A stretch of DNA of 64,000 nt from Termitidicoccus mucosus. Lineage in GTDB: Bacteria; Verrucomicrobiota; Verrucomicrobiia; Opitutales; Opitutaceae. This document shows, one piece after another, positions 3,148 through 19,264 of the stretch. Position 1 is the stretch's first letter. Each line of letters opens with the position of its first letter. A model generated the notes under the pieces. It worked only from the letters and a program-made list of their open reading frames with translations. It had not been told where the DNA came from and made no database searches. The stretch spans positions 6,572,501 to 6,636,500 of the forward strand of contig NZ_CP109796.1 in the NCBI RefSeq assembly GCF_038725785.1. The letters run 5' to 3'. The translations under genes and the position numbers were made by a program.

Positions 3148-3156
3148 GGCGAAAAA

Positions 3157-3246
3157 ATCTTTCTCTTTATTCTTTGTCTTTCCTCTTTCTCTTTTTGATC
3201 AGCACTCAGGAGAGAAAGAGGAAAGACAAAGAATAAAGAGAAAGAT
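3157..3246. repeat. Perfect 36-bp-arm hairpin repeat, copy B
   Basis: The arms at 3157-3192 and 3211-3246 are perfect reverse complements with an 18-nt loop. It fills nearly the whole gap between the stop of the HAD gene and the start of uvrB. Compared with copy E (42854-42952) it carries TTTGTC in the left arm and GACAAA in the right arm, where E has TTTATC and GATAAA: a compensated base-pair change. Confidence 0.9.
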
Positions 3247-3254
3247 AAGGAGAA

Positions 3255-3944
3255 TCATTTCCACAGCGCCTGCACGTTGGCAACGGTGAGCTCGTCGAGG
3301 CGGTGGACGACGCGGTCGGCGACGGCGCGCAGCTCCGAGGCGGGATGGGTGGTGGCGACGGCGACGACTTTCATGCCGCCGGCGCGCGCGGCCTGGATGC
3401 CGACGAGCGCGTCCTCGAACACGGCGCAGTGGCGCGGTTCGCGGGCGATTTTTTCGGAAGCGCGCAGAAACACATCCGGATGCGGCTTGCCCGCGCGCAC
3501 ATCCTCGGCGGTGACGATGCCGGTGAACAGTCCGGTGAAGCCGAGCACATCGAGGATGGTGTCGATGTTGAGCCGGTGCGTGGACGAGCCGACGGCGAAC
3601 GGCACGCCGGCGTCGCGCAGGCGGTGCAGGAACGCAGCCACGCCGGGAAGCGCCTCGACGCCGCGCTCACGGATGACGTCGCGGTAGAGCGCCTCCTTGC
3701 GGAGCGAGAGGTGTTTGATCCCGGCGTGGTCGGCGGCGTCCGTCCAGCCGAGAAGATTTGGGATGATGTGCTCGTTTTTCATGCCGAAGCCGCGTTTGAA
3801 ATGGTCGGCGGGCAGGGGCTTGCCGATCTCGGCGGCGAGGCGTTCCCAGCTTGCCTCGTGTTGAGAGGAGGAGTCGATGATGACGCCGTCCCAATCGAAG
3901 AGCACGCCGAGCGCGGAGAGCGGAAGAGGAGCGTTTGCAGGCAT
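3255..3944 (-). CDS. HAD-superfamily hydrolase, beta-phosphoglucomutase-like
   Basis: This is a cytoplasmic haloacid-dehalogenase-fold phosphatase or phosphomutase of about 229 aa. The motifs are in order: motif I FDWDGVIIDS with the nucleophilic Asp, a cap region, motif II GSSTHR, a motif III Lys in RAGKPHPDVF, and motif IV VFEDALVGIQAA. These place it in the PGMB/phosphatase subfamily, but substrate cannot be read from sequence; a sugar phosphate is the usual guess. The frame extends to a GTG at 3992, but the ATG at 3944 puts motif I about 15 residues from the start, as is normal, and is preferred. It lies upstream of uvrB on the same strand. Confidence 0.85.
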   Translation of the reverse strand: MPANAPLPLSALGVLFDWDGVIIDSSSQHEASWERLAAEIGKPLPADHFKRGFGMKNEHIIPNLLGWTDAADHAGIKHLSLRKEALYRDVIRERGVEALPGVAAFLHRLRDAGVPFAVGSSTHRLNIDTILDVLGFTGLFTGIVTAEDVRAGKPHPDVFLRASEKIAREPRHCAVFEDALVGIQAARAGGMKVVAVATTHPASELRAVADRVVHRLDELTVANVQALWK

Positions 3945-4145: not shown

Positions 4146-5504
4146 TTATTCTTTTGCCACCAGCACCCGCGCGCTCGGCTCGATTTGGTAGGCGGGACCA
4201 TTGGCCGCCTTCACATTCACGTTTTTCATCAGCACGTTTTGCGCGCACGCGATGCGCAGCCCGAGCGGCGCGTCGATGTTTACGTTTTCCAGCAGCAATC
4301 CGTCGAGCGGCTCCTCGGGCAGCGCGACGATGATGCCCGCGCTCTTCCGGCAATCCCTTGCCGTGATGTTGCGGATGGTGATGTTGCGCCACGACGGCGT
4401 GTTCGGGTCGCGTATCGATGGTTCGGATACAGCGGCGCCCGGCTTGGGCATCAGGCGCTCCGGATAATAACTGGTGATATAAATCGCCACGCCGACATTG
4501 CGCATCGTCAGGTTTTCATACGTGCAGTTTTCCACTAAACCGCCACGGCCGCGCGGGGATTTCAGGCGGATGCCCGCGTCGGTGCCGTCGAACACGCAAT
4601 CGCGGACGATCAGGTTGCGCAACCCGCCATTGGTCTCGCTGCCCACCGACATGCCATGCCCGCGCAAGAACCGGCATTTTTCGACCAGCACATCCTCGAC
4701 CGGCGAGTCCGGCCTGCCCGACTTGATGGCGATGCAGTCGTCGCCCGTGTCGAACGTGCACCCGGTGATGAGCACGCGCCGTGACGCCGCCGGGTCGATG
4801 CCGTCGGTGTTGGGCGCGTGTTCCGGCGCCCGCACCGTCACGCCTCGCGCCGTGAAGTCCTCGCTGCGCGAGACCACGCAGTGAAATTGCGGCGAATTGG
4901 TCAGCGTGATGGCTTCGAGCAGAATCCGTCGCGACTTTTCGATCACGAGCAGCCTCGGGCGGCCGATTTCCTCGTTGGCGTCGCCGCGTGCGCGCGCCGC
5001 ATCCTTGAACTTGCGCGCCTCGCTCCACCACGCGCTTCCCTGTCCGTCGAGCACGCCTTCGCCGGTGATCGCCACATCCTCGACGCCCGACGCGCCGACG
5101 AGCGGGCGAAACTTGCGGTCCTTGATGCGGTAGGCCTCCGGGTCGGTGGAGAAGAGCAGGCGCGCCTCTTTTTCGAGATGCAGGTCGAGCCGGCCCGCCA
5201 GCTCGATATGTCCCACGCGAAACACTCCCGCCGGCACGATCAGCCTGCCGCCGCCCGCTTGGACGACCGCGGCTATGGCCTTTGCAAACGCCGCCGTGTT
5301 GCCGTCCTCCGTGCCGTCCGGTGCCGCTCCGAAATCGGTGACCCGGAATGAGCGTTCTGGAATCGACGGGAGCGCCGGATTCACTTCCCGCGGCGCGGCG
5401 CCCCGCACAAGCGAGGCGGTGGAAAACGCAAGCAGCAGGAGCGCAACGGGCAAGGGGAACGGCAGCCGGGACGGGCAGGTTGGATGATGGATAAACGCGG
5501 GCAT
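4146..5504 (-). CDS. Glycoside hydrolase family 28 (polygalacturonase-type), secreted
   Basis: GH28 enzymes hydrolyse galacturonan or related pectic backbones with a right-handed beta-helix. Numbering from the long open frame (GTG-type start at 5603), the motifs are NTDGID (265-270), DTGDDCIAIKSG (285-296, the catalytic Asp pair), GHGMSVGSE (315-323) and RLKSPRGRGG (346-355), all in family order and spacing. The ATG at 5504 (MPAFIHHP) gives a typical signal peptide, with hydrophobic LPVALLLLAFSTASL before an Ala-rich cleavage region, so export to the periplasm or surface is expected; this start is preferred. It is divergent from the PL1-receptor gene, suggesting a shared pectin-utilisation control region. 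Whether it acts endo, exo, or on rhamnogalacturonan cannot be decided. Confidence 0.92.
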   Translation of the reverse strand: MPAFIHHPTCPSRLPFPLPVALLLLAFSTASLVRGAAPREVNPALPSIPERSFRVTDFGAAPDGTEDGNTAAFAKAIAAVVQAGGGRLIVPAGVFRVGHIELAGRLDLHLEKEARLLFSTDPEAYRIKDRKFRPLVGASGVEDVAITGEGVLDGQGSAWWSEARKFKDAARARGDANEEIGRPRLLVIEKSRRILLEAITLTNSPQFHCVVSRSEDFTARGVTVRAPEHAPNTDGIDPAASRRVLITGCTFDTGDDCIAIKSGRPDSPVEDVLVEKCRFLRGHGMSVGSETNGGLRNLIVRDCVFDGTDAGIRLKSPRGRGGLVENCTYENLTMRNVGVAIYITSYYPERLMPKPGAAVSEPSIRDPNTPSWRNITIRNITARDCRKSAGIIVALPEEPLDGLLLENVNIDAPLGLRIACAQNVLMKNVNVKAANGPAYQIEPSARVLVAKE

Positions 5505-5724
5505 GTGATTTGTTTGGGCAGGGGAGAGCCTACATGATTTAGCGCGCGAAGGATTGTCGCACAAACGGACTACAACCGGCCGGATGGGGTGGGGCGCTGT
5601 CACCCTTTTTGACTACACGCCGCGACGCTTTTCCACTCGCGCGCGCAATCGGACATTTTGATACTGGAAAAATCCGAGATCCCCTCCCTCTGCCCGCATC
5701 CCGCGCCCCGTCGTCCGTATCCGT

Positions 5725-5754
5725 TTATCAACTACAAGTGTCCATTTATATAAT
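5725..5754 (+). promoter_or_regulatory. Candidate promoter of the PL1-receptor gene
   Basis: A perfect -10 hexamer TATAAT at 5749-5754 follows TTATCA (5725-5730, four of six matches to TTGACA) with an 18-bp spacer. It lies in an AT-rich patch about 65 bp before the ATG at 5819, inside the 215-bp gap to the divergent GH28 gene. Sequence-only prediction. Confidence 0.4.
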
Positions 5755-5818
5755 ATAAAACATCGTTTTGCGGCTATCCGCATGACTGTAACCGCCCCGG
5801 TCTTTCTATTCATCAATC

Positions 5819-8800
5819 ATGAAAAAAATGAAAAAACGACTCTGCCCACTGCCCATCCTCGTTCCGCTTTGCCTTGTCCTCGCGATCGTCGTCTCCGTCG
5901 TGTTTGGGTTTGCCCCGCTCCAGGCCGGCATCGTCACCGCCCCTTCGTCCGCCTTCAACCTCACCGGCTTTGCCAGCGGGGCCACCGGCGGCGGTGTCAT
6001 TGACGAGGCCGACCCCGCCTACCGCAAAGTCACCACGGCGCTCGAGTTCATCACCGCCATCCGCGACGCCAACAGCACCCCGAAGGGCGTGACCACGCCG
6101 AAAGTGATCGAGATCATGAACGACCTCAATCTCGGCTGGAATGAAATCGGCGCGGAGGCGCAGGGCCTCGCCAGCAATCCCGCCCGCGCGCACAACGCGC
6201 CGAAGCTGCATCCCGTGCTCATCGCCAGCGGCGTCACCCTCCTCGATATCAAACCCAAGGCCGGCGGGCTCACCCTCTTCTCCGCCAACGGCTCCACCAT
6301 CAGGCATTGCACCTTCAACGTCAAAAGCACGACGAACATCATCATTCGCAACCTCCGGTTTGACGAAATGTGGGAATGGGACGAAGCCACCAAGGGCGAC
6401 TACGACAGCAACGACTGGGACTTCATCACCCTCGGCAACGGCGGCGACACCAGCCATGTCTGGATCGACCACTGCACCTTCACCAAGGCCTACGACGGCA
6501 TCACCGACATGAAGGCCAAGGCCGCCAACGTCACCTACTCGTGGTGCCGCATCGAAGGCGGCGACGACGCGCCCGGCGGCTTCATTCGTCAGCAAATCGA
6601 CGCGCTCGAGGCCGGCAAATCCGGCACCACCGTTTACAAGTTCCTCCGCGACACCGCCGGTTTTACTCCCGAGGAAATCGCCTTCATCATGCGCGGTCAG
6701 AAAAAAGGCATCCTCATGGGCGCGAACTCCCTCAAGGCCGAGAATGCCCTCCTCACCGGGACCTTCCACCACATCCTGATGACAAACCTCTGGGATCGCG
6801 CCATCCCCCGGCTCCGCGGCGGCAATGTCCACATCTATAACAGCATCCTCGACGACACCGAGGCGCTTGTAGCCAAGCGTCTCCGCGACACCCGCGCCGC
6901 CGCGCTCACCTCCGCGCAGCAAAACACCCTCGCCAACACCTATCACTTCAACCCGCCGCTCAACGGCTGCATCTCCACCGAGGACGGCGCCATTCTCCTC
7001 GAAAAATCCGTTTACACCGACTGCCTCTGGCCCCTGCGCAACAACCAGACCGACGTGAACAACCCCGCCTACACCGGCAAAATCCTCGGCCTCGACGTCA
7101 TCTATAATTTCACCAACACCGACACCACTGTCACCACCGTGCGCGGCAACAGCACCGACGAAGGCAACCCCCTCGGCCCCAAGCAGGCCGCGATCAAGCC
7201 CTTCTCGTGGAATCTCGCCGGCGGCGTGCTCCCCTACACGATTTCCTACATGGACGACCCCTCGACGCTCGAAACCATCCTCCAGGCCGGCGCCGGCGCG
7301 GGCGTGATCGAATGGAGCGACGGCGACAAATACAACTGGCTCAAAACCACCTATCCCGCCGCCCCGGTCGCGGATGTCGCGCCCGTCATCACCGTCCAGC
7401 CGAGATCGCAGGCCGCGATCGCCGGCGCGACCGTCACCCTGAGCGTCGTAGCCACCGGCAGCCCCGTGCTCTCCTATCAGTGGTATAAGGACAGCGCCGT
7501 CGTCTCCACCGGCGGCACCGGCAGCACGCTCACGCTTGCCAACATCGGCGCGGCCAACGAGGGCAGTTATCATGTGGTCGTTTCCAACGGCATCGCGCCC
7601 GATGCCACCAGCGACACCGCCGTCATCGCGCTCGCCGCTCCGCCGCTTCCCCCCGTCGCCGCGGCCGCGACTGCCATCACCGGCTCGACCTTCACGGCCA
7701 ACTGGGCCGCATCGGACAACGCCACCGGCTACAGCATCGACGTTTCGCCCGACCCGCTCTTCGGCTCCTTCTGGCCCGGCTGCGAAACCCTCGATGTCGG
7801 CAACGTCACCAGCAAAACCATCACCGGGCTCAATCCGGCCACCACCTACTATTATCGCGTCCGCGCCACCGTCGGTTCCTACGCCACGGCGGATTCGAAC
7901 GTCATCACGGCGGCCACGTCAAACGTCACGCTCAACGCGCTGGTCAATGACGCCATGGGCGATAACGACCGCAACAGCGCCGTCGCTTCGCCCACCGCGA
8001 CCAACACCCAATGGGTCACCAATAGCAGCGGCGCATTCACCCCGTCCGCCACCGGCCTGAAATGGACGCTCAACGGCACCTCGAACGCCATGTGCCTCGG
8101 TTATTTCCCGCTCGTCAGCGTCGGCATCGGGGAAGCCAATTCCGTCACGCTTACGCTCAATTTCACCACGGGTGACAATGGCGCCACTGTCGGCAACCTG
8201 CGCACGGCTTTGATCAATGACACCGCTGGCGGACGTGTCACGGCGGACGGCTTTAGCTCCACAAACAGCGCTTACGACGGCGATGTGGGTTACGGCGTTT
8301 TTTCCGCCTCGTCCAACGTCGGAGCGGGAAACACCATCGACTTGGTCTTGAGAACCTACAAACGCAACGCCACGGGGAGCACCAATCTGCTCGGCACACT
8401 CGGTGATTGGGGTGATGCCGCCGGAACCACCACCAGCCAAATGGGCAACAGCTCCGATGCCACCGGTTATTTGGCTGCCAACACCGCCTACACGCTCGCC
8501 ATCACGCTCAGCTACGATGGAACCACGCTCTCCATACGCACCCAACTCACCGGTGGGAACATGAGCGGAATGGATTATACTGTGACCGACAACACCACGC
8601 CGATCCTTGGTTTCAATGCCCTCGCTATCCGTCCCGACAAAGCCGCCGGCCAATTTTCTTTTCTCAACATCACCGGCCTGCAAATCACCCAAGGTGCCGG
8701 CACGCCGATTCCCGCGGTCCCCTCCATCTACAGCGCATCGACCGCCACCGGACGCCAAGGCAATGCCTTCACTTACGCCACCGCCGCCACCAACGGCCCC

Positions 8801-11800
8801 ATCACTCATTACGCCGCCACCGGTCTGCCCGCTGGCCTGACCTGCGATTCAAACACCGGCGTCATCAGCGGCGCGCCCGTGGAAAGCGGCACCTTCGACG
8901 TCACCCTCACCGCCACCAACGCCAACGGCGCCGGCACGCCCTTCGCGCTCACCCTGACCATCGGCGGCCCGCCGCCTGTTGCGCCCGCGGTGTCCGAAGC
9001 GACCATCCCCACCGCCAGCGGCTTCACCGCCAACTGGGCCGCCGTCCCCGGCGCGAGCGGCTACCTGCTCGATGTTTCCACCAGCCCCGATTTTTCCACC
9101 TTTGTGTCCGGCTACGAGGGACTCGATGTTGGCGATGCCACCAGCTACACCCTCGCCGACCTCGCCCCGGGCACGACTTACTACTACCGCGTCAGCGCCT
9201 GCGCAGGCGATGTCGTCGGCGACAGCTCCGCCACCATCACTGTCACCACCAGCGCGGGCGGTTCCGGCTATCTCGTCAACGACACCTTCACCGACACCGA
9301 CCGCATCGGAGGCTCCGACGGTTCCTCCACTTCGAAGACCGGCGGCCCGTTTGCCGTCACGCCCACGGGGACCAACACCCAATGGGTTGCCAACCAGGTC
9401 AGCACGCTCGTCGCCACCGGCACTGATCTGACGTGGAGCTACACCGGCGTCAGTTCTGTCATGGCGATGGGCTATTTCCCCGATGTCACCGTCGGCACGA
9501 GCGGCACCGTCACCGTCCAGCTCAAGTTCACGACCGGGGCGGCCGGCACCGGCGTGGACAACCTGCGCGCCATCCTCATCGACGACACCGTCGGCGGGCG
9601 CGTTGACAACGATGGTTTCAGTTCCTCCGAGGCGCGCCAGAACGGCGACAAGGGCTACGCCGTCTTCTCCGCCGCTTCCACGGTCGGCAATGGCACAACC
9701 GATCTCGGCCTGAAAACCTACAAGCGCACGACGACCGCCAGCGACGACCTGCTCAGCTCCTCCGGCAACTGGACGACCATCGCTCCCGCCAGCGCCGGCT
9801 CCACCGGATACCTGGAAGGCGGCACCGCCTACACGCTCACCTTCATGCTCGCCTACGACGGCGCCACGCTCTCCATGCGCACGAAACTCGAAGGCGGCAA
9901 CTTCACCGGCCTCGACTACACCGTCACCGACAGCGCCAGCCCCGTCCTCACCTTCAACGCCATCGGGCTCCGCCTCGGCAAAGGCACGCTCCAGTTCAGC
10001 CAGCTCAAGTTCGACAGCCTGAAAATCTGGGAGGGCGATGAACCCGCCGCCGCACCGGCGGCGCCCGTCTTGTCCGCAGCCACCGGTGTTGCCGCCGACG
10101 GGTTCAGCGTAAACTGGACCGCGTCCCCCGGCGCGACCGGCTACTATCTCGATGTTTCCACTGATCCCGCCTTCGGCAGCTTCGTCGCCGGCTACAACAA
10201 CCTCAACATCGGCAACGTCACCAGCTACGCCGTCACGGGCCTCATGCCGGGAGTCACCTATTATTACCGCGTCCGCGCCGCCGGCGCCGGCGGCACGAGC
10301 GCCAGTTCCGCCTCCGGCACGGTTGCAACCACTGCCGCCGCCAGCTATCTCGTGAACGACACCTTCACGGATTACGACCGTATCGGCGGTTTCGACGGCT
10401 CCGCGACCGCGCCCGACTCACCGATTGTCTCCGTGCCTACCGACACCAACACCCAATGGGTTGCCACCAGCACCAGCACCCTCGTCGCCACCGGCACCGG
10501 CATGGTCTGGAATTACGTTGGCACCGGAAATTCCATGGCGGTCGGCTATTTTCCCGACGTGACCGTCGCCGCCAGCAGCACCGTCACCGTGCAGCTCAAG
10601 TTCACTACTGGCGTTGTCGGCACCGGCACCAACAACCTCCGCATCGCCCTCCTCAACGACACGGCGAACGGACGCTTTTCCACCGACGGCGTGACCGCGA
10701 GCAGCAGTTATTACGAGGGCGATACCGGCTACGCCATCATGTCCGCCTCCAGCAACATAGGCAATTCCACCGCCAACCTCGTCTTGCGCACCTATAAGCG
10801 CATCAATACTACGGCCACCGATCTGCTCGGCACCGCCGGCAATTGGGGCACGGCCACAGGCACGACTTCACAAATAGGAAACAGCACCGGCTCCACCGGC
10901 TATCTCCAGGGCGAAAACGACTACACACTCACAGTCACTCTCGCAAAAAATACCGCCGGCACCGAAATGACCATTGGCACCAAACTCGAAGGCGGCAACT
11001 TCAGCGGACTCGAATACAGTGTCGTTGACCAAGACGCTACTGTCGCGATCACCAGCACATTCAACGCCCTTGCATTCCGTCTCGGCGGCAGCACGACCCA
11101 ATACGACCACATCAAGTTCACCAGCCTCAAAATATGGGAAGGCGAGGAACCCGCCGCTTCCGCTCCCGTGATCAACAGTCCGTTGACCGCCACCGCCACG
11201 GTCGGCGAGGCCTTCAATTACACCATCACGGCGAGCAATTCGCCGACGAGCTACGCCGCCACCGGCCTGCCCATCGGTCTGTCCCTTGACCCCGCTACCG
11301 GCGTCATCACCGGCACGCCTTTGGAAAGCGGCACTTTCAATGTCGCCCTTGCCGCGACCAATGACGTCGGCACCAGTCCCGCCGTCACGCTGGTACTGAC
11401 CGTCAATCCGGCTGTCACCGCCGTGCCCGTCATCACCAGCGCCACCACCGCCACCGCCGTCGTCGGCACCGAGTTCACCTACACGATCACCGCCGACAAC
11501 TCGCCCGCCGGTTTCGCCGCCACGGGACTCCCCGCCAGCTTCGCGCTCGATCCCGCCACCGGCGTCATCAGCGGCACGGCCGTCACCGGCGACATCGGCC
11601 CGCATCCCGTCGTCCTCACCGCGACCAACGCCATCGGCGCCAGCCTGCCCGTCACCCTCACGCTCACCGTGGAGCCTCCTCCGGCGCTCGCCACGCCCGT
11701 CGCTTCCCCCGCCACCGGCGTGACCACCACCGGCTTCATCGCCCGATGGGAAACCGTCACCGGCGCCACCGGCTACCGTCTCGACATCGCCACCGACTCC

Positions 11801-14800
11801 GCCTTCTCCAGCTTCGTGTCCGGTTACAACGACCTTGATGTCGGCGCCGCGCGTCTCCGCGCCATCACGGGCCTTGCCCCCGACACCCCTTATTACTACC
11901 GCGTCCGCGCGGCTGACGATTCCGGCCCCACGGCCTCCTCGAACGTCATCACCGTCCGCACCGCCGACACCGAGACCGTTCTCGTTGACGACCGCTTCGA
12001 CGACACCGACCGCATCGGCGGCGCCGACGGCTCCACCAGCACATCGTCCTCGCCCGTGATCGGCACTCCCACCGCGACCAACACCCAGTGGCTCGCCAGC
12101 CGGGTCAAGCAACTCGTCGCCTCCGCCACGGGCATGAAGTGGAACTTCGACACCACCAGCAGCATTGGCGCCCTCGGCTATTTCCCCGCGTTCAACGTCA
12201 ACAACGGCCAGACCGTGACCCTCAAGCTCGACTTCACCACCGGCACGTTCGGACCCGCCGCCAACAACCTCCGCATCGCCCTGCTCAACGGCGTCGCCAA
12301 CGGACGCCGCGCGACCGACGGCTTCAACCCCGGCGGCACCGGCGATCCGGCCTTCGTCGGCGACATCGGCTACGGCATCTTCACCAACTCCATGGTCGGA
12401 GGCACGGCCGCCTCGCCCGTCACCCTCGCCGTCAACAAACGCCTCGCCACCAGCAACGCCGCCCTCCTCAACACCACGGCCGACTGGGGCACTCCTCCGA
12501 ACTCGACCGAAAACATGGGTTCCAGCGGCACGCCGCCGGACGATCACCTCTTCGCGGCCAACACCGCCTACTCGCTCATCGTCACCCTCACCCGCGAATC
12601 CGCCACCAGTCTCGCCATCACCGCCCAAATCACCGGCGGAAATCTCACCAGGCTGATCTGCACCGGAGTGGACATCACGGAGCCCGTCACCACGTTCGAC
12701 ACCATCGCATTTCGCTTCGGCCAGGGCAGCAACCAGTTCTCGGACGTCACCTTCACCGGCCTGACCATCGCCACCACCGGCAGCGGTGTCGCCACGGAGC
12801 CGCCCTCCATCACCAGCGCGCTCACCGCGAGCGGACTGCTCGGCTCGCCCTTCACCTACACCATCGCCGCCAGCAACATGCCCACCGGCTTCACCGCCTC
12901 GGGCCTGCCCGCCGGCCTTGCCCTCAACCCGGCCACGGGCGTCATCTCCGGCACGCCCGCGGTCACGGGCTCCTTCGCCGTCACCATTGGCGCGTCCAAC
13001 GCCATCGGCTCCGACAGCCGGCAGCTCGACCTCCGCGTCACCGCCGGCCAGAGCGACATCGGCACGGTCGTTTCCCCGGGCGGACTCGGCGGCCCGACTT
13101 CCACCGTGTTCGACGCCGACGGCAACGGCTTCATTGCCGACGTCGCCTCCGGCACGATCAAGAAAGTCGCCCCCGGCGGCGCCGTGAGCACCTTCGCCAC
13201 CATCCCGCAACTCGCCGTCCTCGCCATCGACGCCGCCGGCAACCTCTACACCGCCGGGGACGACGGCAATGTCCGCAAGGTCCTCGCCGACGGCACCGTT
13301 GTCAGTCCCGCGCTCGCCACCGGCGTCACCACGCCCGGCGGCATCGCGGCCGGCCCCGACGGCGTCGTGTATGTGAGCAAGACCGCCGCCAACACCATCG
13401 TGAAAATCACCTCCGCCGGCGTCGTCAGCACGCTCGCCGGCTCGGGGGCCGCGGGCTCGGCCGACTCCGCCACCGGCACCGCCGCCACCTTCAACGGACC
13501 CACCGGCCTCGCCCTCAACTCCGCCACCGGCCTGCTCTACGTGGCCGATACCGTCAACTGCACCCTCCGCGAAATCAACCTCGCCACCGGCGCCGTCGCC
13601 ACCGTCGCCGGCCAGCCGGGCGTGCCCGGCGACACCGGCAGCGCGGGCGACAACGGCAAAGCCGCCGACGGCACCCTCGACACCCCGGAAGCCATTGCAA
13701 TCGACGATGCCGGCCTCCTCTACATCGCCGACACGGGCAACAACCTCATCCGCGGCTTCGACCCCGTCTCCGGCGCGCTCGTCACCCTCGCCGGCGACAC
13801 CGGCGCGACGACCCTCAGCGCCCCCGCCGGTCTCGCCTTCGATCCCGTCAGCGGTCTCCTCCATGTCGCCGACACCGGCAACAACGCCCTGCGCGTCGTC
13901 ACCATCAAGCCGGTCATTGCCGCCAAGATCACCGACCGCGTCGTCGCTCTCGGCTCGAGCGTCACGCTCGACGGCACCGCCTGGGCTTCGCCCGCCGCCG
14001 CATATGTCTGGTCCGTGCACGGCCAGCCCCTGCCCGCGACCGGCGCCACGCTCTCGATCGACGTCAACAGCGTCACCGACTCGGGCGTCTATACGATTGT
14101 CGCCACCAACACCGCCGGCTCCGGCACCGCCAGCATGCGCCTCACCGTCAGCGACGACAACTGGAGCGGCGGCTCCGGTTCCGGCGGCGGTGGCGGCGGC
14201 GCGCCCGGCCTCTGGCTCCTCGCCGGCATCGCCCTGCTCGTCCTCGTCCGAAAACTGGCCCTGCATCGCGCCACTCTCCTCGCGCTGCTCCTTTCGCTGC
14301 TGGCCATTCACGCCACGCCCTTTTCCGCATCCCTCATGGCGCAGCAAACCGCCGCGGACGAAGACGACACGCCCGACGAAGTCGTCGCCATGTCGGCCTT
14401 CGAAGTGCGCAGCGAAAGCGTCAAGGGCTACACCGCCTCCGAGTCCGTCACCGGCACGCGCGTCGCCAGCCTCCTGCGCGAACTGCCCTTCAACGTCAAC
14501 GTGGTCACCAGCGAGTTCATCAGCGACTTCAACGCGCTCGAACTCGCCGACCAGCTCTCGAACGTCAGCTCGTTTTCGCCGTCCGAGAACACCGGCCAGT
14601 ATCAACTCCGTGGCTTCCAGGCCTCGACGCAACTCGTCGACGGCTTCCGCCGCGTCGGCCTGACCGGCGTCACCGTCACCGACCGCGTCGAAGTCATCAA
14701 GGGCCCCGCCGCCTCCATCTACGGCGCCATCCAGCCCGGCGGCGCGGTCAACACCCTGCGGAAAAAGCCCACGTCCACGCCCAAATACGGGGTCACCGCC

Positions 14801-16819
14801 GGTTTCGGCACGAAAGACCAGGCCCGCGGCTCCTTCTACGCCTCCGGTCCCGCCGGCACCAGTGACAAGCTCTTCTATCGCATCGACACCGAGTATCGCA
14901 CGGCCGACCGCCAGCAGGAGTTTGCCAAAACCCGCAACGAATACATCGCCGCGCAGCTCGTGTACAAACCCACCTCGCGCACCACCATCGGCCTCTTCAT
15001 CGACTACGCCGACCGCCACGACTTCAACACCTACCAGATGGCCACCGCCGCCGTGAACCTCGACACCTCCAACCCGCCGTCCTGGTTCACCTATTCGCTC
15101 GACGGCTACCAACGCTACTTCGCCAAGAGCTACACGCAGTATTTCGGCATGGATTACGACTACTACGATTTCAATCTCCTCGGGCCCAACGCCAACAAAT
15201 ACAACCGCCTCACCGCCGGCAGCCTCACCCTCGACCACAAGTTCAACGCCGCCTGGAGCCTTCGCGCCTCCTTCAACATGTCGTATAATCCCACGCACGG
15301 CGAAAAGGCCGCCGCCACGTATTACCCCTTTGGCGAAGCCGCCGTTTCCAGCGCCACCACCGAGCCCCCGCCCGCGTCGGTCAAGCTCACCCCGCAGCAC
15401 GACGAGGGCGTGACCAAGGCCACCGGCCTCCAGATCGACAACCTCTTCCGTTTCTCCACCGGCCCCGTCAGGCACCAGTTTCTCGTCACCACCGACTACT
15501 ACCGCAACTCCGACTACGCCCTCTCCATCAAGTGGCCGGTTTCCCTCTACTACGATCCCCTCGACCCCTATGGCGCCCACGGCATCTACCGCAGCTACGA
15601 CTACCCGACCTGGGAGGAAGACCCCTCCAACTACACCGTCCCCAGCACCCACGCGAAAACCATCAGCCGCGACTACGGCATCTTTCTCAGCGAACGCGCC
15701 ACGATGTTCAACGGGCGCCTGATCGCCATGATCGGCGGCCGTTACGACTACGTTGACAGCACCGCCGAGCACAAGCCCACCGAGGACGAGCCCACGGCCA
15801 AAAAAACCGACTACAACGTCGATGCCTGGACCTACCAGGCCGGCCTCACCGCCATCGTCTCGCGCAACATCTCGCTCTACGCCAACGCCAGCTCCGCCTT
15901 TGACCCGCAGCCGCAGCTCGACGAAAACGACGAGCCCCTGCCCAACATCGAAAGCGACGGCTACGAATTCGGCGTCAAGCTCACGCTCCTCCAGGAACGC
16001 CTCAACATCACCCTCAATCGTTTCCACATCCGGCAGAAAAACCTCGTCACTTCCATCACCGACGCCATCACGCAGCAAAAGGAAGTCATCCTCACCGGCG
16101 AGCAGATTGCCAAGGGTTACGAGGTGGACTTCAACTGGCAGGTCACCCGCTCGCTGAACGTCGTCGGCGGCTACGGCTACGTGGACGCCAAGATCACCGA
16201 CGCCGGCAAGCTCAACTGGATGAACGACACCACGCCCCGCCGCGTGCCCAAGCACAACCTCGGCACCGCCGTCCGCTATGAGTTTGTCAACGGCAGGCTC
16301 AAGGGGCTCTTCGCGCTCGCCGGCGTCACCTACTACAGCAAATCGCTCGTCAACCTCGGCTCGGGCAAGGCGCTCGTCCCCTACACCGGCGCGCCCACGG
16401 TGAGCGGTATGCAGCAGAACCAAATCTACAACGCCCGCTTCCCCAACGGCGGCCTGCCTTATCCCTACCTCCCGGAGAATGCCGTCGTCACCTACTATGA
16501 CAGCGCGACGAAGTATCTCTACTGGACCGACGTCGCCGGGGCCGCGACGACCGTGGACCTCATGAAATACTCCTACGCCGACCCCTACATGAGCGGCATG
16601 AGCTACGTGCTCGACGGACGCGAGCAGAACTACAACCGCTCCTCGATTGTCTGGAAGGCGGGCGTCGGCTACAAATTCAAGACCCGTTCCTTCGGCCACC
16701 GCTTGAGCCACAAAATCCAGGTCAACATGGACAATGTCTTTGACGAAAAGAGCACCCTCGCGGGCGGCATTCCGCTCACCGAGCGCACGGTCATGGTGAC
16801 GTATTCGTTGTCATTCTGA
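5819..16819 (+). CDS. Pectate lyase (PL1) / Ig-FN3-NHL modules / TonB-dependent receptor fusion, 3666 aa
   Basis: One uninterrupted frame. Approximate residues: signal peptide 1-37; PL1 pectate lyase 40-505 (HVWIDHCTF, DGITD, NVTYSW, then NLWDRAIPRLRGG and VHIYNSIL, matching the family's order); Ig-like domain 520-603; four FN3 domains (about 605, 1050, 1413, 1957), each followed by a 220-270-aa module opening LVNDxFxDxDR; four putative-Ig (He_PIG-like) domains; NHL repeats 2415-2700; Ig-like 2700-2780; Gly-rich linker plus APGLWLLAGIALLVLVRK, which resembles a C-terminal sorting anchor. Immediately after it comes a second signal peptide (ATLLALLLSLLAIHA ... SLMA|QQ, 2812-2841), a DEVVAMSAFEV box, a plug domain and a beta-barrel ending in Phe, i.e. 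a complete TonB-dependent receptor. No stop and no in-frame ATG/GTG/TTG separates the halves before the second signal peptide. It may be a natural polyprotein or the product of a lost stop codon. Confidence 0.85.
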   Translation: MKKMKKRLCPLPILVPLCLVLAIVVSVVFGFAPLQAGIVTAPSSAFNLTGFASGATGGGVIDEADPAYRKVTTALEFITAIRDANSTPKGVTTPKVIEIMNDLNLGWNEIGAEAQGLASNPARAHNAPKLHPVLIASGVTLLDIKPKAGGLTLFSANGSTIRHCTFNVKSTTNIIIRNLRFDEMWEWDEATKGDYDSNDWDFITLGNGGDTSHVWIDHCTFTKAYDGITDMKAKAANVTYSWCRIEGGDDAPGGFIRQQIDALEAGKSGTTVYKFLRDTAGFTPEEIAFIMRGQKKGILMGANSLKAENALLTGTFHHILMTNLWDRAIPRLRGGNVHIYNSILDDTEALVAKRLRDTRAAALTSAQQNTLANTYHFNPPLNGCISTEDGAILLEKSVYTDCLWPLRNNQTDVNNPAYTGKILGLDVIYNFTNTDTTVTTVRGNSTDEGNPLGPKQAAIKPFSWNLAGGVLPYTISYMDDPSTLETILQAGAGAGVIEWSDGDKYNWLKTTYPAAPVADVAPVITVQPRSQAAIAGATVTLSVVATGSPVLSYQWYKDSAVVSTGGTGSTLTLANIGAANEGSYHVVVSNGIAPDATSDTAVIALAAPPLPPVAAAATAITGSTFTANWAASDNATGYSIDVSPDPLFGSFWPGCETLDVGNVTSKTITGLNPATTYYYRVRATVGSYATADSNVITAATSNVTLNALVNDAMGDNDRNSAVASPTATNTQWVTNSSGAFTPSATGLKWTLNGTSNAMCLGYFPLVSVGIGEANSVTLTLNFTTGDNGATVGNLRTALINDTAGGRVTADGFSSTNSAYDGDVGYGVFSASSNVGAGNTIDLVLRTYKRNATGSTNLLGTLGDWGDAAGTTTSQMGNSSDATGYLAANTAYTLAITLSYDGTTLSIRTQLTGGNMSGMDYTVTDNTTPILGFNALAIRPDKAAGQFSFLNITGLQITQGAGTPIPAVPSIYSASTATGRQGNAFTYATAATNGPITHYAATGLPAGLTCDSNTGVISGAPVESGTFDVTLTATNANGAGTPFALTLTIGGPPPVAPAVSEATIPTASGFTANWAAVPGASGYLLDVSTSPDFSTFVSGYEGLDVGDATSYTLADLAPGTTYYYRVSACAGDVVGDSSATITVTTSAGGSGYLVNDTFTDTDRIGGSDGSSTSKTGGPFAVTPTGTNTQWVANQVSTLVATGTDLTWSYTGVSSVMAMGYFPDVTVGTSGTVTVQLKFTTGAAGTGVDNLRAILIDDTVGGRVDNDGFSSSEARQNGDKGYAVFSAASTVGNGTTDLGLKTYKRTTTASDDLLSSSGNWTTIAPASAGSTGYLEGGTAYTLTFMLAYDGATLSMRTKLEGGNFTGLDYTVTDSASPVLTFNAIGLRLGKGTLQFSQLKFDSLKIWEGDEPAAAPAAPVLSAATGVAADGFSVNWTASPGATGYYLDVSTDPAFGSFVAGYNNLNIGNVTSYAVTGLMPGVTYYYRVRAAGAGGTSASSASGTVATTAAASYLVNDTFTDYDRIGGFDGSATAPDSPIVSVPTDTNTQWVATSTSTLVATGTGMVWNYVGTGNSMAVGYFPDVTVAASSTVTVQLKFTTGVVGTGTNNLRIALLNDTANGRFSTDGVTASSSYYEGDTGYAIMSASSNIGNSTANLVLRTYKRINTTATDLLGTAGNWGTATGTTSQIGNSTGSTGYLQGENDYTLTVTLAKNTAGTEMTIGTKLEGGNFSGLEYSVVDQDATVAITSTFNALAFRLGGSTTQYDHIKFTSLKIWEGEEPAASAPVINSPLTATATVGEAFNYTITASNSPTSYAATGLPIGLSLDPATGVITGTPLESGTFNVALAATNDVGTSPAVTLVLTVNPAVTAVPVITSATTATAVVGTEFTYTITADNSPAGFAATGLPASFALDPATGVISGTAVTGDIGPHPVVLTATNAIGASLPVTLTLTVEPPPALATPVASPATGVTTTGFIARWETVTGATGYRLDIATDSAFSSFVSGYNDLDVGAARLRAITGLAPDTPYYYRVRAADDSGPTASSNVITVRTADTETVLVDDRFDDTDRIGGADGSTSTSSSPVIGTPTATNTQWLASRVKQLVASATGMKWNFDTTSSIGALGYFPAFNVNNGQTVTLKLDFTTGTFGPAANNLRIALLNGVANGRRATDGFNPGGTGDPAFVGDIGYGIFTNSMVGGTAASPVTLAVNKRLATSNAALLNTTADWGTPPNSTENMGSSGTPPDDHLFAANTAYSLIVTLTRESATSLAITAQITGGNLTRLICTGVDITEPVTTFDTIAFRFGQGSNQFSDVTFTGLTIATTGSGVATEPPSITSALTASGLLGSPFTYTIAASNMPTGFTASGLPAGLALNPATGVISGTPAVTGSFAVTIGASNAIGSDSRQLDLRVTAGQSDIGTVVSPGGLGGPTSTVFDADGNGFIADVASGTIKKVAPGGAVSTFATIPQLAVLAIDAAGNLYTAGDDGNVRKVLADGTVVSPALATGVTTPGGIAAGPDGVVYVSKTAANTIVKITSAGVVSTLAGSGAAGSADSATGTAATFNGPTGLALNSATGLLYVADTVNCTLREINLATGAVATVAGQPGVPGDTGSAGDNGKAADGTLDTPEAIAIDDAGLLYIADTGNNLIRGFDPVSGALVTLAGDTGATTLSAPAGLAFDPVSGLLHVADTGNNALRVVTIKPVIAAKITDRVVALGSSVTLDGTAWASPAAAYVWSVHGQPLPATGATLSIDVNSVTDSGVYTIVATNTAGSGTASMRLTVSDDNWSGGSGSGGGGGGAPGLWLLAGIALLVLVRKLALHRATLLALLLSLLAIHATPFSASLMAQQTAADEDDTPDEVVAMSAFEVRSESVKGYTASESVTGTRVASLLRELPFNVNVVTSEFISDFNALELADQLSNVSSFSPSENTGQYQLRGFQASTQLVDGFRRVGLTGVTVTDRVEVIKGPAASIYGAIQPGGAVNTLRKKPTSTPKYGVTAGFGTKDQARGSFYASGPAGTSDKLFYRIDTEYRTADRQQEFAKTRNEYIAAQLVYKPTSRTTIGLFIDYADRHDFNTYQMATAAVNLDTSNPPSWFTYSLDGYQRYFAKSYTQYFGMDYDYYDFNLLGPNANKYNRLTAGSLTLDHKFNAAWSLRASFNMSYNPTHGEKAAATYYPFGEAAVSSATTEPPPASVKLTPQHDEGVTKATGLQIDNLFRFSTGPVRHQFLVTTDYYRNSDYALSIKWPVSLYYDPLDPYGAHGIYRSYDYPTWEEDPSNYTVPSTHAKTISRDYGIFLSERATMFNGRLIAMIGGRYDYVDSTAEHKPTEDEPTAKKTDYNVDAWTYQAGLTAIVSRNISLYANASSAFDPQPQLDENDEPLPNIESDGYEFGVKLTLLQERLNITLNRFHIRQKNLVTSITDAITQQKEVILTGEQIAKGYEVDFNWQVTRSLNVVGGYGYVDAKITDAGKLNWMNDTTPRRVPKHNLGTAVRYEFVNGRLKGLFALAGVTYYSKSLVNLGSGKALVPYTGAPTVSGMQQNQIYNARFPNGGLPYPYLPENAVVTYYDSATKYLYWTDVAGAATTVDLMKYSYADPYMSGMSYVLDGREQNYNRSSIVWKAGVGYKFKTRSFGHRLSHKIQVNMDNVFDEKSTLAGGIPLTERTVMVTYSLSF

Positions 16820-16924
16820 AAAAGCGCCCAAGCCATTTCGGGACAGCGTGGAAAGCCGCGTCACATCCGTTTGGCGAAAAACGGACGAAGCCGCGGGCCG
16901 CACACCGTAGCGCAGCAACGGTGA

Positions 16925-18091
<1,167 letters not shown>

Positions 18092-18235
18092 ATCCCTGCC
18101 TGCCGTCGGAAAGAAATTCGCGCGAAGCGCGGCACTTGTTCCTTGGAAAAAAGCCAGCGGCGCTTCGCGCCTTTCGGTTTCGACGGCAGGCAGAGACGCC
18201 TGCGCTACGGGTGGCTGCCGCTCTCTCTGACGGGA

Positions 18236-18372
18236 GCAACTCAAAGTGATGACACCGCCGGAATCTTTCCTCTTTATTCTTTATCTTTCCTCTTTCTCCC
18301 TGCCCATGCCTGACGAAAGATAAAGATAAAGAGGAAAGAAGAAAGAGGGAGTGACACAACTTTGAGTTACAC
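18236..18372. repeat. MITE-like hairpin element, copy C
   Basis: About 137 bp with terminal inverted repeats: GCAACTCAAAGTGATG at the left and the complement of GTAACTCAAAGTTGTG at the right. The interior is two pyrimidine/purine arms (CTTTCCTCTTTATTCTTTAT and AGATAAAGAGGAAAGAAGAA types) around TGCCTGACG. It is almost identical to copy D at 24545-24682. It carries no coding capacity. It lies in the otherwise gene-free stretch 18209-18463, in which I see no other feature. Confidence 0.85.
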
Positions 18373-18463
18373 CCCTCTCTGACCATAGTCGCAATCGCCA
18401 TCGCGCACCCGCCCCGCAATTATTCTTCCGTATTCCGGAAATCCGGGAAATAACCATGGCCGG

Positions 18464-19264
18464 ATGCCTGAGCACGTGACACCAGTTTCCCGGGAAAATG
18501 TTTCGGTCGAGCAGTTTGCCGACATGGCGCTCGACGTCGGCGTCTTCCTGCTCGCGTCGGGCGCGCATTGCGGACGGGTCTTCAGCAACCTGAAACGGCT
18601 GGCCGACCGCTGGGGTTTCCCCATTCACATCAATCCGGCCTTCACCGGGCTCACCATCACCGTGCGCGACCGCGAGCAGCCGGAACGAACCGTCACGCGC
18701 TATCACGACGCGCCCCCGCACAATGTCCACCTGGCCATTCTCACCCTGTTCAGCCGGCTGTCGTGGCGGGTGCTGGAAGAGCGGCTGCCCTTCAGCGACG
18801 TCAAACGGCAAATCGAGGCCATCAAGGCGAAGGCCGGCTATAATTACTGGCTCGTCGCCCTCGCCGTCGGCATTGCCTGCGGCAGCTTGTGCATGCTGTC
18901 GGGCGGGGATTGCCGGAACGCGCTTTGCGCCTTCACCGCCGCCTTTGCCGGGGCCGTGCTGCGGGTGGCGGTGCTCCGCCTGCGGTTCAATCCCATGATT
19001 TCTTTTGTGGCCGCGTCGTTTGTCACGACCGTCATCGCGGGGGCCGACACCATCTGGCATTTCGGCGCCTCGCCGGAGGCCACGCTGGCGACCGCCGTGC
19101 TTTATCTGGTCCCGGGCGTGCCGTTGATCAACAGTGTCATCGATCTCATCGAAGGCTATCTGGCCTCGGCGCTGTCGCGCGGGCTCTACGCCGCGTTCAT
19201 CCTGCTCTGCATCGCCGCCGGCATGACCTTCGGCATCACCCTGCTCGGCATCGGGAATTTCTAG
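18464..19264 (+). CDS. ThrE-family threonine/serine exporter, large subunit (YjjP-like)
   Basis: A 266-aa inner-membrane protein. The N-terminal ~125 residues form the soluble ThrE/DUF1212 domain (ALDVGVFLLASGAHCGRVFS, then FPIHINPAFTGLTITV). The rest is about five hydrophobic helices, including ISFVAASFVTTVIAGA and a conserved-looking LYLVPGVPLINSVIDLIEG. In split ThrE systems this protein pairs with a short YjjB-type protein to export small amino or organic acids; the exact substrate is unknown here. The partner starts 4 bp after its stop, so they are surely one operon. The start MPEHVTPVSREN is the first in-frame ATG after the repeat element. Confidence 0.85.
   Translation: MPEHVTPVSRENVSVEQFADMALDVGVFLLASGAHCGRVFSNLKRLADRWGFPIHINPAFTGLTITVRDREQPERTVTRYHDAPPHNVHLAILTLFSRLSWRVLEERLPFSDVKRQIEAIKAKAGYNYWLVALAVGIACGSLCMLSGGDCRNALCAFTAAFAGAVLRVAVLRLRFNPMISFVAASFVTTVIAGADTIWHFGASPEATLATAVLYLVPGVPLINSVIDLIEGYLASALSRGLYAAFILLCIAAGMTFGITLLGIGNF

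Follow-up and report, generated by a model that had tools for sequence, protein, structure and literature searches.

The window, that is, the whole stretch of DNA that was analysed, comprises 64,000 nucleotides of the Termitidicoccus mucosus genome (G000; 7.92 Mb in 2 contigs). The ORF translation revealed that positions 5819-16819 on the forward strand form a single open frame, which runs from ATG to TGA and encodes 3666 residues plus a stop. A GH28 (polygalacturonase-type) enzyme gene was identified as the divergent upstream neighbour (4149-5603, reverse strand, 178 bits). Directly after the long frame lies an IS110-type transposase gene (16794-17858, reverse strand), whose end overlaps the ORF's final bases on the opposite strand.

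The first part of the encoded protein begins with an N-terminal signal peptide (5819-5926 from the translation; its end is approximate and was judged by eye), which is followed by a pectate lyase domain at 5945-7354. This domain scored 47.4 bits against a cut-off of 24 for Pectate_lyase_4 (PF00544) in Pfam, which places it in PL1, and it matched PDB 5gt5 with 412 bits (query residues 6-475 of 480). Ig, fn3 and He_PIG modules with intervening sequence occupy 7382-13090 (Pfam), and an NHL-type propeller region with approximate limits spans 13091-13918 (NHL, TEN_NHL and Vgb_lyase matches). An Ig domain (I-set, residues 2698-2777; 13910-14149) is located immediately ahead of an anchor-like region. 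In this region, a Gly/Ser-rich motif ending in GGGGGGAP (14168-14206), which is the predicted rhombosortase site by sequence and by comparison with GlyGly-CTERM, is followed by the hydrophobic segment LWLLAGIALLVLV (14210-14248; mean Kyte-Doolittle value of 2.92) and by the basic loop RKLALHR (14249-14269), which is predicted from charge and hydrophobicity to be cytoplasmic. The glycine motif, the helix and the basic stretch are elements of GlyGly-CTERM; the TIGR03501 model gave 12.9 bits against a cut-off of 15.5, and the window anchor is thus a sub-threshold match. This anchor is not C-terminal, as 856 residues continue in frame beyond its hydrophobic segment.

The continuation consists of an internal signal peptide and a TonB-dependent receptor (TBDR). 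The internal signal peptide (14249-14341) shares its n-region with the loop, has the core ATLLALLLSLLAI and is predicted from hydrophobicity, charge and cut site to be cleaved between SLMA and QQ. The mature receptor is predicted to occupy 14342-16816 and would start with QQTAADEDDTPDEVV after cleavage by signal peptidase I. Its Plug domain (14474-14746) scored 48.8 bits against a Pfam cut-off of 23.9. The receptor half was found to be siderophore-receptor-like: it aligned to positions 1-592 of the 649 positions of TIGR01783 with 181.4 bits, which is below the cut-off of 223.5, and its Plug and barrel also aligned with FhuA-type chains. The Pfam barrel models gave no match to the window protein at E 0.001.

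A codon scan of the joint found all three forward frames free of stop codons from 14100 to 14460. Within the gene's own frame, no ATG, GTG or TTG occurs between ATG 14135 and ATG 14336, and only CTG, ATC and ATT codons were present. The ATG at 14336 is downstream of the hydrophobic core, so a receptor begun there would be without a signal peptide. The ORF and codon scans thus bore out an earlier note on this DNA, which had described one frame with neither a stop nor an ATG, GTG or TTG codon at the joint and a first ATG falling after the signal peptide core.

For the protein as a whole, the closest homologue, encoded at locus L198 of a genome from another genus (G125), is also one ORF, so the outcome that the earlier note had named as refuting, homologues always present as two ORFs, was not observed. 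The two proteins are collinear and share 65.4% identity over 3716 columns; their global alignment has 3748 columns, 122 of which contain gaps. The internal signal peptides of the pair are 59% identical (27 codons), and the first signal peptides are 36% identical (36 codons). The pN/pS values at the joint were 0.53-0.67, which rest on few codons and are not lower than those of much of the protein. Among 57 genomes, the receptor had three homologues outside G000 at E ≤ 1e-80, each in a different genome, with 33-38% identity and frames of 750-855 residues, and the PL1 half had one homologue (G006; 61% identity) in a frame of 1179 residues with no such anchor at its end. As these stand-alone homologues show, neither half is always fused. 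A comparison with named genomes revealed six related loci (records titled Opitutus, Opitutae and Opitutaceae) that were 26-30% identical, none of them close.

The same layout was found elsewhere in the genome. A whole-genome DNA search with the anchor pattern GGGAPx[hydrophobic]W identified 12 places, compared with 0 for the reversed pattern, and all 12 passed the hydrophobicity rule for anchors. Seven of these anchors are C-terminal, with a stop within 50 residues, and five continue. Four of the continuing anchors (the window, L027, L029 and L030) lead, with the frame intact, to a second signal peptide and a TBDR, and the fifth (L028) runs into a shifted frame. At L028 (C1, around 1,589,000), a 65-base deletion was observed relative to the G002 locus L202; the internal signal peptide is gone and the frame is shifted. 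The fused layout can therefore decay. The genome contains 122 Plug-domain matches, a large TBDR set for a genome of 7.9 Mb, and only the four fused genes among them have open frames longer than 3000 residues (3155-3858). Three of the next-longest Plug frames (1587, 1438 and 1314 residues) look ordinary, with an ATG and a signal peptide after an open, apparently non-coding stretch. We also considered whether, in this genome, the unfused anchor genes open operons in which a TBDR gene comes next; the Plug places were compared by eye with the seven C-terminal anchors, and this idea was dropped, as no Plug was present directly downstream of any of them. At L041, a Plug match is located upstream, not downstream, of the C-terminal anchor.

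Across the family, the pattern was present in 63 of 252 genomes, with 125 places outside G000. The backward-pattern control gave 27 matches, counted from the table, so part of the 125 places are due to chance. Inspection of 124 of these places revealed 92 C-terminal anchors, 26 that fail the hydrophobicity rule and six that continue. Five of the six run into a second signal peptide; the remaining one, L144, has a 77-residue tail without one. We additionally searched the 252 genomes with a profile of seven junctions, scoring up to 18 candidates per genome and counting from the matches listed. Among those matches were at least 13 fused TBDRs (seven of which were in the profile) in six genomes of the genera g1 and g3: four in G000, one in G002 and two each in G125, G004, G127 and G126. 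For one of the G127 genes, the profile matched only from position 30 on, and the anchor was seen in the sequence. The other matches listed were frames of about 200-1490 residues, mostly 1000-1250. A class-wide search of 384 genomes from the larger group, with up to 12 candidates scored per genome, found no fused case outside g1 and g3. Since the layout occurs in a second genus and in 13 TBDR genes, the loss of the stop is neither recent nor local, which corrects in this respect the lost stop of the earlier note. In G125, the two ends of contig C1 (L091 and L132) overlap by about 2.5 kb with 0 mismatches and 10 gap bases, and the start copy of this overlap breaks the frame of L199. Two more chains, L200 in G125 and L201 in G126, combine an anchor protein with a second exported protein. 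The L201 frame (4204-19008) encodes 4935 residues, in which an internal anchor and signal peptide are followed by pectinesterase and PL1 and by a second, C-terminal anchor.

To describe the joint across the class, internal signal peptides were recognised from their hydrophobicity, charge and cut site, and a second signal-peptide-like segment was found inside one open frame in 13 genes. Each of the 13 junctions contains two hydrophobic segments, with best 13-residue means of 1.78-2.92 and 2.14-2.81, and every junction loop is net positive (3-14 basic and 0-4 acidic residues). By eye, Ala or Ser and then Gln is found near the expected cut in all 13. Similar signal peptides ending before Gln are present in stand-alone TBDRs of G000 (for example, L269, L271, L272 and L273). 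Gln at position +1 after the TBDR signal peptide was observed in 13 of 13 fused genes, in at least six of 12 unfused rows (L269, L271, L272, L273, L276 and L286), several of the rows being in the wrong frame, and in three of three further genes (L289, L290 and L291). PMC5837995 describes the Q-rule as specific to Bacteroidetes. NHL repeats scored over the Pfam cut-off in the first part of all 13 chains, and the best Ig stretch is directly ahead of the anchor in nine (the window, L027, L030, L199, L202, L249, L250, L252 and L254), so NHL is the general feature of the first parts. In L198, a V-set match below the cut-off lies ahead of the anchor, L029 and L253 show no Ig there, and L251 is the one chain that makes the count of nine a lower bound.

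On a TBDR tree of 62 rows, 13 of them fused, the fused label required five changes; shuffled labels required 12.1 on average, and 0 of 500 shuffles were as low. The fused groups were the window with L198; L251; L199, L250 and L254; L027, L030, L252, L202 and L249; and L029 with L253. These five groups may represent gains, or gains plus losses. Long branches make the place of the window and L198 on the tree uncertain. The CarboxypepD_reg domain is absent from the window and L198 and present in the receptor halves of L027, L029, L030, L199 and L202, the scan having taken in these seven receptor halves. This difference would fit a separate origin of the window/L198 pair. In the four cross-genus pairs starred on the tree (window/L198, L030/L252, L202/L249 and L029/L253), the loops are 7/11, 11/54, 8/7 and 26/8 residues long, and every frame is open nonetheless. 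The linker of the L029 polyprotein (10735-10845) consists of an interspersed repeat that has 49 matches in G000, including itself (40 candidates scored), which suggests that this loop may derive from intergenic DNA that became open and was then translated. The 54-residue loop at the L252 junction is in frame and also resembles translated intergenic DNA.

Two rhombosortases were identified in G000 with TIGR03902 at 103.8 and 100.4 bits, over the cut-off of 84, and both contain GLSG. The gene at C1:3593896-3594372 (reverse strand) is located just after a GlyGly-type gene ending in GFGGGGGGALESTDIAFLLFFAFLAWAAWLGRRAMAQKSRDD, and the one at C1:151185-151655 (forward strand) has no GlyGly-type protein within 900 bases upstream. 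Rhombosortase matches over the cut-off were present in 136 of the 252 family genomes; all 14 control genomes had weak TIGR03902 matches, none over the cut-off. Five of the six genomes with fused genes (G000, G004, G125, G126 and G127) have a rhombosortase over the cut-off, and G002, a 68% complete genome, showed no match. By eye, at least 25 of the 125 anchor places, in 25 other genomes, precede a same-strand rhombosortase match by 173-363 bases, measured between starts. The enzyme and the narrow anchor pattern are nevertheless not a tight pair, given 136 against 63 of 252 genomes. A T2SS-type secretin match scored 302 bits, below the cut-off of 351, so the export route to the surface is putative. 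PMC6219818 reports that VesB of V. cholerae is cleaved by rhombosortase at GlyGly, exposing the second Gly, that the cut end gains a glycerophosphoethanolamine-containing moiety (+197 Da), and that T2SS is needed for surface display. In excerpts from other sources, the GlyGly-CTERM motif functions as an independent module (PMC13393428), and Opitutus terrae has one GlyGly-CTERM protein adjoining its rhombosortase (the 2011 paper, PMC3237569).

From these features we infer, with a probability of about 0.7, that the polyprotein is inserted as a membrane hairpin, from which rhombosortase frees the enzyme part and signal peptidase I frees the receptor. The first signal peptide would start Sec export of the PL1/Ig/NHL part, and the hydrophobic segment of the Gly-rich anchor would stop transfer. 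The basic loop would remain in the cytoplasm, and the second hydrophobic segment, acting as the internal signal peptide, would restart export for the receptor part. Rhombosortase would cut at the Gly-rich motif and probably add a lipid moiety, and the enzyme part would reach the cell surface, with pectin as its presumed substrate; signal peptidase I would cut between A and QQ, and the receptor would proceed to outer-membrane assembly. As both parts would arise from one translation event, equal amounts of the surface pectin-active protein and the receptor would be expected. The earlier proposal of a polyprotein cut by signal peptidase between SLMA and QQ thereby gains comparative evidence, to which we add a second cut, likely made by rhombosortase at the Gly-rich anchor.

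The main rival, which we regard as unlikely, is that the receptor is made mainly from an internal start near the second signal peptide, so that the open joint is incidental read-through. In nine of the 13 fused genes, an ATG, GTG or TTG located between anchor and signal core could serve in this way, and L198, the orthologue in G125, has an ATG four codons ahead of the core. However, the window, L030, L202 and L251 contain only CTG in this interval (14255 or 14261 in the window), and a start at the joint is not conserved, since three of the four cross-genus pairs have one partner without any. Moreover, in a frame without a stop, ribosomes from upstream would make the long chain anyway. A less probable arrangement is cleavage by signal peptidase only, with the enzyme part keeping its anchor in the inner membrane and facing the periplasm. 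The resemblance of the internal signal peptide to those of stand-alone TBDRs in G000, the sub-threshold score of the anchor and the lack of a rhombosortase match in G002 are consistent with this arrangement, but the location of anchor places beside rhombosortase genes in at least 25 genomes and the presence of two such enzymes in G000 argue against it.

The earlier note had also raised an enzyme-receptor fusion, which would stay uncut and link pectin cleavage with uptake. One continuous frame would allow such a chain, but it contains two strong hydrophobic segments in its middle, an uncut hairpin would be expected to hold the barrel at the inner membrane, and a plausible cut site was recognised by eye after the signal-like segment in all 13 genes; we thus consider it improbable. 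The lowest probability of all falls to a sequencing error, an assembly join or a decaying fused pseudogene. Such events do have parallels in the broken L028 of the same genome and in the overlapping contig ends of G125, which differ by 10 gap bases. They are nonetheless difficult to reconcile with a full-length collinear orthologue in another genus, with at least 13 genes in six genomes and with the lack of stops near the joint. Sequencing or assembly error was rejected on the basis of the orthologues and the recurrence, and the same findings, together with the stop-free forward frames, contradict the erroneously lost stop near 14255 that the earlier note had envisaged.

With regard to substrate, the divergent GH28 gene upstream of the polyprotein gene would fit a role in the use of pectin. 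The L198 DNA around the G125 orthologue, which includes 2.2 kb upstream of the gene, gave no GH28 match. Among the scanned chains, pectin enzymes were present only in the window, L198 and L201, and the others contained PATR, Laminin_G_3, He_PIG or Ig modules; pectin is therefore not the theme of the fused class. The family match of the window receptor is to siderophore receptors, below the cut-off.

Bacteria usually encode each exported protein in a gene of its own, which supplies a start, a signal peptide and a stop. In the fused genes, neither the stop nor the intergenic gap remains, at least four of them are also without the usual start codons, and two sorting signals directly adjoin each other. 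The fused layout looks like a real, rarely seen way to obtain two envelope proteins from one gene. Returning to the membrane hairpin with two cuts, we consider it somewhat better than an even chance that these genes form a class of envelope polyproteins, from which rhombosortase and signal peptidase I yield a surface-anchored, sometimes polysaccharide-active, protein and an outer-membrane receptor, with several origins in two related genera and fixed co-production. If both cuts happen, this would be a natural design for equal amounts of surface protein and receptor. Rhombosortase would then be able to act on a mid-chain site; rhomboids are not known to require that the C-terminus be free close to the cut. 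Chains in which two enzyme parts are exported, such as the 4935-residue protein of G126 with its two anchors, would extend the class to multi-unit polyproteins. The hairpin also raises the question of how a single nascent chain would be shared among Sec, rhombosortase, the surface export route and the barrel-assembly machinery. As automated annotation may label such proteins by one half only, more of them are possibly hidden in databases.

Among the open-access papers listed by literature searches, none describes, judging by titles and abstract openings, a GlyGly-CTERM in mid-chain or a polyprotein with a TBDR, and the words fusion, fused and internal are absent from PMC3237569. The window system is similar to the published GlyGly-CTERM/rhombosortase systems (PMC3237569; VesB, PMC6219818) in its Gly/Ser motif, hydrophobic helix, basic residues and rhombosortase genes, but its signal is mid-chain, with a signal peptide and a further exported protein behind it. 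The motif type, GGGAPxxW, also differs from the GlyGly-CTERM model and is below its cut-off. Compared with TonB-dependent siderophore receptors (TIGR01783, FhuA-type), the Plug and barrel of the window protein align over most of the model, although the receptor is below the family cut-off and is fused to an upstream surface protein. The cytochrome b/c1 polyprotein (fbcH) of Bradyrhizobium japonicum is a bacterial precedent, its chain being separated at an internal signal peptide; in contrast to the window protein, which would give a surface protein and an outer-membrane receptor, it is without a sorting signal and belongs to an inner-membrane complex. In the SusC/SusD systems of Bacteroidota, a TBDR is produced together with a surface carbohydrate protein. 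The SusD family was not among the Pfam matches of the scanned chains. The window polyprotein would work in a similar manner to SusC/SusD, but from one gene and with NHL, Ig and PL1 modules instead.
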